Source: Methylacidiphilum infernorum V4 (GTDB lineage: Bacteria > Verrucomicrobiota > Verrucomicrobiia > Methylacidiphilales > Methylacidiphilaceae). Taken from it: 64,000 nt of DNA. Of the stretch, positions 39,355 to 41,234 are shown in pieces; position 1 is the first letter of the stretch; the number at the start of each line of letters is the position of its first letter. The stretch covers positions 1,922,001 to 1,986,000 of the forward strand of contig NC_010794.1 of NCBI RefSeq assembly GCF_000019665.1, written 5' to 3'. The position numbers were made by a program, and so were the translations under genes. The notes under the pieces were generated by a model. The model saw only the letters and a list, made by a program, of their open reading frames with translations, was not told where the DNA came from and ran no database searches.

Positions 39355-40074
39355 TCAAAAAATCTTGGGAAAGAGGATCTTGAGAAGGAAAAAAAGCGCC
39401 GCTCCCCCTATGAAACCCACGGCTAAGAGGAACCATACCGCCCAGATTCTCAACAGGTGCTTCTTTTTCTCCAGGCTTTCAACGCCGGCCAACAGCTTTT
39501 TGATCAGTTCGTCTCGCTGGGGAAGATCTTTATCCTTCCTGGTCTTTTCCTCGACCACGATCTGTTTTATTTCCTGGTGGCTTTCCGCCAAGGTATGGAT
39601 GACTTCTTCAACCTGTTTTTGGTAATTTTCCAAGTAACCGACAAAATTTCTCAACTCTTTAAGACCCTCCTCCAAGGAGGAAAAATTACTCGAAGCCAGA
39701 TTTTGCAGGAGTCGGCTGACTTCCTTGGGGATCGAATCCAGGTAAGCGGCATTCGCTTCCAGCAAAAGCAAAAGACCGGGTAATGTATCCAGGGGTTTTT
39801 CTCCCTGGCAATGGTCCATGTACCATTCCCAAGCCATTTCTCTTTTTTCCGCGGGAAGCCTGGAAATAGCCGCCTTCCAGTACCTGTGGGGATCATCTTT
39901 TCCTTCGGATTGAACGCTTGAAGTCAAGGATGAAGATAGGGAATGGCCTTGTTGAAGAGCAGGGTTTTCCAAAGCCGTTTTCTGGTCTTCTTTCGTCGGC
40001 AAGGGATTCCTTGATGAGGGAAAAGGAAAGGAAGATTTCGAAGGAATAGACCAGTTGGCTTTAAAAGGTTTCAT
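39355..40074 (-). CDS. C-terminally membrane-anchored coiled-coil protein (TraM/StbC-like partner)
   Basis: 239 residues. A Ser/Pro-rich, disordered N-terminus (1-60) is followed by a helical region with coiled-coil character (about 125-205, including KNYQKQVEEVIHTL-like heptads). One transmembrane helix near the end (IWAVWFLLAVGFIGGAALFF) precedes a short basic tail. Its start overlaps the stop of the ATPase gene by 4 bp (ATGA), so they are made together. A small P-loop ATPase followed by a tail-anchored membrane protein matches TraL-TraM of IncP plasmids and StbB-StbC of IncW plasmids. Sequence identity cannot be judged by eye, so the relation is architectural. Confidence 0.6.
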   Translation of the reverse strand: MKPFKANWSIPSKSSFPFPSSRNPLPTKEDQKTALENPALQQGHSLSSSLTSSVQSEGKDDPHRYWKAAISRLPAEKREMAWEWYMDHCQGEKPLDTLPGLLLLLEANAAYLDSIPKEVSRLLQNLASSNFSSLEEGLKELRNFVGYLENYQKQVEEVIHTLAESHQEIKQIVVEEKTRKDKDLPQRDELIKKLLAGVESLEKKKHLLRIWAVWFLLAVGFIGGAALFFLLKILFPKIF

Positions 40075-40898
40075 TGAAGGTTCGATAAATTAATCTTGGC
40101 CCCTCTTCTTTGCAATGAAAACTCCTTATTTTCCTCGGGCGGCTTTTTCCACTTTTCCATAACCCTCTTTGCCTCCTCGTCAGGAAGTAAATAACCGGCA
40201 AGCCGGTCATACTGCTCGAACATTTTTTTAACCCAATCTTCAAGGATGAGCCGGTGAAAAAGATCCATTTTAATCTTCTTATCTGAAATGATCTCCAGGA
40301 GATTGAGAGGTTGTTGCAGTTCGACTTCTAACAGGGAGAGGTAATTGCGCGTATCCGAAAGCAGGGCGGGAATCTCCAGGGTGGCAGCTCCCAGTGCAGC
40401 CAGTTCTTTTTCCAGTTGGCTGCCGTCGAACATCCGGGTTTTAGGAGCTTTTGCCCTGTTTTTAATGACCAGGTAATCTACCTTGTCTCCAAACTTTTCG
40501 ACGATCTCCGCCAGTTCATCCATGACACTCAGATCGTCAACGGGAAAGAGTAAAACCGTCGTCCTTATACCAGACTGGGCTCCCCAATCGAGAAAATGGG
40601 CAAAATCCATGGAATGGAGTAAAACCCTAAAAAAATGGGCTTGAGGATCAAGGACCGTTACCGACCTTTCGGGAATCGTCCTAAATATTTTTAGAAAATC
40701 CGCCTCGGGTTCCTCGGACAACAGGACCAACTTCGCTTCAGGTATCGCCCTGGAGAGAGTCCGGTTATCGCTATCGAGATCGTAAGCCTGCCATGAAACA
40801 TTCCTGGCATTCATCCAGAAAATCTGCAGCGAAGCCTGCGTGGATTTTCCTACATTTCCCTTGCTCTGCAGGGGCAGAGTAAAACGGTGTTTAATCAT
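40071..40898 (-). CDS. ParA/MinD-like P-loop ATPase (TraL/StbB-like)
   Basis: 275 residues. The N-terminus LQSKGNVGKSTQASL has the deviant Walker A box (K13-G-N-V-G-K18-S19) of ParA/MinD/TraL ATPases. The strand-ending YDLDSDN (about 38-44) and VLDPQAH (about 85) supply the acidic switch residues, and VIKNRAK (about 148) is the usual nucleotide-base contact region. These proteins bind ATP and position DNA, plasmids or membrane complexes. The downstream, ATGA-coupled gene encodes a tail-anchored protein that could be its membrane partner. No ParB-like gene or parS repeat is near. Plasmid-mobilisation ancestry is inference. Confidence 0.7.
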   Translation of the reverse strand: MIKHRFTLPLQSKGNVGKSTQASLQIFWMNARNVSWQAYDLDSDNRTLSRAIPEAKLVLLSEEPEADFLKIFRTIPERSVTVLDPQAHFFRVLLHSMDFAHFLDWGAQSGIRTTVLLFPVDDLSVMDELAEIVEKFGDKVDYLVIKNRAKAPKTRMFDGSQLEKELAALGAATLEIPALLSDTRNYLSLLEVELQQPLNLLEIISDKKIKMDLFHRLILEDWVKKMFEQYDRLAGYLLPDEEAKRVMEKWKKPPEENKEFSLQRRGAKINLSNLQ

Positions 40899-40964
40899 AT
40901 TCTATAAAACTCCTTCCTTCTTGTCTCTTCAACAAATTTACTCGTTTTTTAAAGCTCTCTAATC

Positions 40965-41234
40965 TTATTTTCTATTTTTTTCAATGAGAATTTCAGCTAT
41001 TCTTAAAATCGCGACTTGATTTTTGCCCCCAGTCGAGGGGTTCTTTTCTTGCACCGGGGTTTTTTCGCCCGAAAAAATCAAAACGGCTAGGCTCTCTTCG
41101 CGTGCCGTCCAATAGGCACGGTCGGAATAGGAAGCCTCAAGGATAATGTCAAGGGGATATTCCCATAAATGGCGCAGCTTGTCACTGCATTTTTCCCTTC
41201 CAAGCACTTCTTGGGCTCTTCCGGCAAGCCTCAA
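40965..41234 (-). CDS. Small hypothetical protein upstream of the ATPase pair
   Basis: 89 residues from a TTG; an in-frame stop lies nine codons upstream. Composition looks like real protein (LRHLWEYPLDIILEASYSDR, QVAILRIAEILIEKNRK), basic at both ends. No family is recognised. It ends 66 bp before the ParA-like gene on the same strand, so it may be part of the same unit; in TraK-TraL-TraM and StbA-StbB-StbC loci a small DNA-binding protein occupies this place, but I see no helix-turn-helix. No ribosome binding site is evident. Treat as probable. Confidence 0.4.
   Translation of the reverse strand: MRLAGRAQEVLGREKCSDKLRHLWEYPLDIILEASYSDRAYWTAREESLAVLIFSGEKTPVQEKNPSTGGKNQVAILRIAEILIEKNRK

Follow-up and report, generated by a model that had tools for sequence, protein, structure and literature searches.

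A chromosomal TraL/StbB-like ATPase and its membrane partner in Methylacidiphilum infernorum, a probable domesticated mobilisation module

What might a plasmid-type ATPase and its membrane partner do on a chromosome? This question is raised by a pair of overlapping genes in a 64,000-nucleotide stretch of the Methylacidiphilum infernorum V4 genome (the window; NC_010794.1, positions 1,922,001 to 1,986,000), which as a whole is a single contig of 2,287,145 bases. A preliminary description, made from the sequence alone, had taken the genes to be an orphan TraL/TraM-like (StbB/StbC-like) pair. Our analysis leads us to conclude that they are probably a domesticated mobilisation StbBC module that acts as a membrane-tethered positioning switch of the ParA/MinD superfamily. 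The domestication is well supported; the positioning function is what we infer.

A conserved two-gene locus

The features of the locus are listed in Table 1. Both ORFs, the single C-terminal transmembrane (TM) helix of the second product and the ATGA overlap had been recognized from the sequence, and both ORFs and the overlap are kept in relatives; the overlap suggests that the ATPase and membrane genes may be translationally coupled. The small basic protein that had been placed upstream had to be given up, as none of 13 relatives contains a homologue (the best chance match, elsewhere, had E=0.06) and in sister genomes only short non-coding DNA separates the ATPase gene from the upstream gene, called beta-propeller-like from reading its sequence. 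With this ORF rejected as spurious, the pair lacks the DNA-binding first gene that would make it a three-gene operon. The possible promoter was read by eye, as was a TTGAAA/TAG motif that recurs upstream of the ATPase gene in same-genus relatives, and it is absent from the list returned by a consensus promoter scan. Upstream of the pair, a search for direct or inverted repeats of ≥10 bp within 80 bp gave none.

Table 1. Features of the locus (positions in the window)
Feature	Position	Strand	Basis
ATPase of 275 aa, TraL/StbB-like, with a deviant-Walker P-loop; first of the two genes	40898-40071	minus	orthologues, TraL profile match, fold model
StbC/TraM-like membrane protein, 239 aa, second gene of the pair	40074-39355	minus	orthologues, profile match to MOBF modules
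ATGA overlap of ATPase stop and membrane-gene start	40071-40074	minus	sequence; equal offset in relatives
Possible promoter of the pair, TTGAAA-N17-TAGAGA	40956-40984	minus	by eye, low confidence
Small basic ORF with TTG start, spurious and outside the system	41234-40965	minus	without homologues; non-coding in relatives

The 13 relatives from the Methylacidiphilaceae comprised five genomes of the same genus, seven of a sister genus and one of a third genus (G005). Orthologues of the ATPase were present in 11 of them, namely all five same-genus genomes (87-89% identity) and six of the seven from the sister genus (49-52%), and G005 held only distant ATPase paralogues. The membrane gene, whose absence from relatives had been named beforehand as a finding that would speak against the pair, has orthologues in 12 of the 13 (in one, G012, the gene starts at a contig edge) and is present wherever the locus occurs. 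In the two genera the locus is syntenic and the overlap of the two genes identical. Compared with the closest genome, G002, a pairing in which synonymous sites are near saturation, the ATPase gene gave a dN of 0.058 and a dS of 1.76 (dN/dS 0.033) and the membrane gene a dN of 0.120 and a dS of 1.80 (dN/dS 0.066), which places both within the range of housekeeping neighbours in the region such as pepA (0.069) and ispH (0.015). As both ORFs and their overlap are conserved and evolve under purifying selection, the pair is not a product of chance, and its synteny, retained overlap and low dN/dS indicate that it acts as a functioning two-gene operon.

Family assignment and relaxase-linked relatives

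The ATPase carries the deviant Walker A motif SKGNVGKST, the A' motif DLDSDN and a Walker B motif of the form hhhhD (VTVLD), as first described, and residues G14, G17, K18, S19, D40, D42 and D84 are invariant across 10 aligned relatives. When compared by hhalign, where each E-value refers to a single pair of profiles and not to a database search, the ATPase family matched annotated TraL proteins over their full length (E 1.2e-8, 222 columns) and a wider core profile did so at E 8e-11, whereas the ParA/Soj (E 2e-4) and Mrp (E 6.5e-4) proteins of the same genome aligned around the P-loop only. Relaxase-linked ATPases matched the family at E 5e-58 to 2e-64, and an intermediate among them, of the L050 type, itself matches the NCBIfam TraL model (E 2e-12). 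By its motif set and its ranking of TraL above the ParA/Soj and Mrp paralogues, the protein is assigned from sequence to the TraL/StbB superfamily, in keeping with the preliminary description; closer similarity to MinD or to flagellar or pilus ATPases was not seen as far as tested. The profile search proposed there succeeded in part: TraL was reached by hhalign, but the curated NCBIfam models for StbB (NF041292) and TraL (NF010461) gave no match to the window ATPase at E<1. Scans of the window proteins with Pfam, NCBIfam, PADLOC and PHROGs returned sub-threshold matches only, P-loop and coiled-coil matches having been set aside as unspecific, and phmmer against the PDB yielded nothing useful. 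An AlphaFold model of the ATPase (pLDDT 82) has a ParA/MipZ-type fold and matched ParF, MipZ, MinD and FlhG generically at Z 12-15, with ParF and MipZ the best (Z 14-15); as this fold is common to the whole superfamily, it does not discriminate among functions. As regards a C-terminal amphipathic membrane-targeting helix of the MinD type, the last 24 residues of the model are below pLDDT 50 and no hydrophobic segment was seen in the ATPase.

The membrane protein begins with a stretch predicted to be disordered (residues 1-59), followed by a conserved helical domain (∼60-120), long helices and one hydrophobic helix at residues 213-231 (KD19 2.44), 8 residues before the C-terminus. Its AlphaFold model is helical and of low confidence (pLDDT 57), and was therefore used for helix content only. 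With a single C-terminal TM helix, a mostly helical make-up (according to that low-confidence model) and a gene directly after that of the ATPase, it has the topology of StbC/TraM-type proteins. Direct comparisons were all weak (NF041291, E=0.064; hhalign against R388 StbC, 0.18, and against TraM, 0.03). The combined profile of membrane proteins from MOBF-linked modules was matched at E 3e-17 over 194 columns, and the counterpart at locus L113, with which the protein has a 'DxHRYWKAAISxLP' domain in common, at 41% identity over 61 aa (E 1.6e-13). The link to StbC/TraM is accordingly supported through operon position, topology and relaxase-linked homologues, a direct profile match being absent.

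In other families of the order, distant homologues belong to a recurrent module in which ATPase and membrane protein are joined by a divergent MOBF relaxase of the TrwC type, a small HTH-like protein and, often, a coupling protein. Of the 26 ATPase relatives outside the family, 21 have a TrwC match within 4 kb; one of the other five is 13 kb from TrwC and four are near the end of a TrwC-less contig. Within the family, none of 11 ATPases has a TrwC match on its contig. A profile scan of genome contigs revealed closer mobile relatives: at L113 the operon order is HTH-ATPase-membrane protein-TrwC relaxase; at L114, L117 and L118 the order is ATPase-membrane protein-coupling protein with the relaxase downstream, the coupling-protein domain having been tested for L117 among the three. 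In the tree, the orphan ATPases fall among the relaxase-linked sequences and come together in 75% of bootstrap trees, with a support for orphan monophyly of 69/97. At E <= 1e-20 the ATPase is found in 17 of ∼129 sampled genomes of the class, and its patchy spread outside the family is as expected for mobile elements. By sequence comparison, both window proteins are homologous to verrucomicrobial MOBF-linked StbBC-like pairs.

In these relaxase-linked modules of Verrucomicrobiota (L069-L071, L113, L114, L117 and L118) both proteins are homologous to those of the window over most of their length, the C-terminal tail motif of the ATPase (INL-x-N-L) is partly shared and the genes overlap or abut; unlike the window pair, they have a TrwC relaxase within ∼5 kb and, in some, an HTH or coupling protein. 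The stbABC operon of the IncW plasmid R388 (L086) resembles the locus in its deviant-Walker ATPase, its short membrane protein with one C-terminal TM helix and its order of DNA-binding protein, ATPase and membrane protein, divergent from a MOBF relaxase operon, but the window pair is chromosomal and without StbA or relaxase, its ATPase has no NF041292 match and matches R388 StbB by hhalign over 15 columns, and it carries the signature lysine (SKGNVGKST) in place of the SGXXGK of R388-type StbB (PMC3098194). The traK-traL-traM genes of an IncP-type plasmid (L133) likewise overlap, with the full-length match of TraL (PRK13886/NF010461) given above and a hydrophobic C-terminal segment in TraM; however, TraM has no detectable sequence match to the window membrane protein, and this TraL is linked to MOBP, in contrast to the MOBF link of the pair's nearest relatives. 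Cyanobacterial plasmid operons of HTH, ATPase and DUF6753 genes (L087-L089) follow the same operon logic, with an ATPase profile match of E 1e-14 and, in L089, an adjoining MobC, but their membrane partner belongs to another sequence family (DUF6753 in L089) and the plasmids are of MOBP type.

Several parts of such modules are missing from the chromosomal pair. No relaxase of the TrwC/MOBF, PF03432, MobA_MobL or TraI_2 families was detected in the whole genome, so that what had been said of the surroundings holds genome-wide for these four families; with no short-distance repeats upstream either, neither an adjacent relaxase of these families nor an oriT was found at the pair. The earlier remark that no partition gene was visible is correct for the neighbourhood; further away, the genome does have genes of the ParA/Soj and ParB types. 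An HTH/StbA-like profile found nothing in the five same-genus genomes, and did find a separate StbA-StbB-like pair of the sister genus, two sequences of which are in the profile. After the TM helix, the nearest mobile relatives have 68-94 residues, compared with 8 or fewer in the chromosomal membrane proteins. The loss of relaxase, StbA and post-TM domain, together with the retention of the remainder under purifying selection, fits the domestication that had been suggested at the outset; since the relaxase is gone and selection on the pair remains strong across the family, the pair would seem to have been adopted by the host.

Type IV secretion and related loci in the family

A cluster ∼840 kb from the pair (G000:C1:1087000-1124000; L090, L096) encodes TrbI/VirB10, VirB4, a T4SS-DNA_transf/TrwB coupling protein, a T2SSE-type ATPase and ParB. 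The chromosomal type IV secretion system (T4SS) of TrbI/VirB10, VirB4 and coupling protein is conserved within the genus and in most genomes of the sister genus, and is apparently relaxase-less, given the genome-wide result for the four relaxase families. It looks anciently and vertically inherited, as the VirB4 sequences share 65-87% identity within the family and 36-37% with those from other families of the order. It may correspond to the 'possible integrated plasmid' of the M. infernorum genome paper (PMC2474590), with which we matched it by approximate gene number only. Our search of the literature on Methylacidiphilum and type IV secretion found no paper on this system.

Further TraL/StbB-like genes were noted in the family. 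A second orphan ATPase of this kind in M. infernorum (G000:C1:1664257-1665018, minus strand; L137) has 253 aa and the motif KGGTGKTT, lies near a sigma-factor-like gene and matches the core family at an hhalign E of 4e-7 over 219 columns. In the sister genus, StbA-like and StbB-like genes form a conserved pair between purF and fabH/plsX (L040-L042, L058, L059), ∼24-32 kb from the chromosomal VirB4 gene in G006-G008; no membrane gene is evident beside them. Two loci are apparently mobile: contig C124 of G009 (L091:1123-5324) carries a TrwC relaxase, a divergent StbA-like gene and an overlapping StbB-like ATPase gene, and contig C82 of G010 (L092:5850-10929) a TrwC relaxase and a divergent StbA-like gene without such an ATPase.

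Possible roles of the pair

The history that we favour would start with StbB and StbC as part of an stbABC/traKLM-type operon on a MOBF mobilisable or conjugative element. Capture on the chromosome would have taken place in an ancestor of the two pair-carrying genera of the Methylacidiphilaceae and been followed by vertical inheritance, the relaxase, the StbA-like DNA-binding protein and the post-TM domain of the membrane protein having been lost since. In the simplest reading, the membrane protein would be the anchor and the ATPase the ATP switch of a docking device: an ATPase dimer would be tethered to the inner membrane through its co-translated partner, whose conserved cytosolic helical domain would face it, and ATP-dependent binding and release would position a cargo from the cytosol at the membrane or dock it there, in line with what has been proposed for StbB and R388. 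On that plasmid, deletion of stbB abolishes conjugation and the plasmid foci are lost from the polar membrane, loss of stbA leaves the plasmid mislocalised and destabilised, and deletion of StbC has no phenotype (PMC3098194). As StbA is gone, the cargo would be a host complex and not a relaxosome brought by StbA, most plausibly the T4SS/coupling-protein machine on the chromosomes of the family, which is the leading candidate.

A more specific form of this explanation, in which the pair is dedicated to the relaxase-less T4SS and recruits or positions its VirD4-type coupling protein or VirB4 complex, we regard as possible but doubtful. It would suit the conservation of that system in the pair-carrying genera and the position of the pair directly before the coupling protein gene at L114, L117 and L118, and it has a precedent in the gonococcus, where a ParA found at the membrane works with the T4SS of a chromosomal island and its relaxase (PMC8716806). 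The T4SS is, however, unlinked to the pair, the co-occurrence of the two is imperfect because VirB4 is also present in the pair-less G005 and in other families, and the coupling protein of the chromosomal system is no more than a distant relative of its counterpart in the mobile modules (22% over 190 aa). Alternatively, the pair could act in trans on incoming MOBF elements, either interfering with them or helping them, by titrating or hijacking their StbA/StbB/StbC complex. TrwC relaxases beside StbA-like genes do occur in the family, on the G009 and G010 contigs, and a dominant-negative role of the pair would be in keeping with the missing StbA and distal domain; the mobile ATPase of G009 nevertheless looks divergent, as a search with the window ATPase did not pick it up, and we consider this role unlikely.

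A MinD/ParA-like system for cell division or chromosome positioning, unrelated to mobilisation, would agree with the generic fold matches of the ATPase model, but that fold is non-discriminating, the profile comparison favours TraL over the ParA/Soj and Mrp proteins of the genome and the nearest relatives are relaxase-linked, making this very unlikely. That the pair is a decaying and currently functionless remnant of an integrated mobilisable element might be read from the missing StbA, relaxase and distal domain; intact and syntenic genes in both genera, a retained overlap, invariant ATPase motifs and above all dN/dS values of 0.03-0.07 strongly disfavour decay, which we hold to be highly improbable. 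The tree, the dN/dS values and the profile comparison were the grounds on which these two explanations were judged unlikely.

As for the domesticated module, we suggest only tentatively that a captured ATPase and its anchor, without relaxase or oriT, organise a vertically inherited chromosomal T4SS or another host complex. If true, the use of StbB/TraL-type ATPases would extend beyond plasmid positioning and relaxosome docking, and would do so in acidophilic methanotrophs. The pair would represent a natural ATPase-membrane core that stands alone under strong selection with no plasmid to move, and its function is thus directly testable. A single bacterial family here combines ATPases of the partition type with mobilisation modules and a chromosomal T4SS that is apparently relaxase-less.
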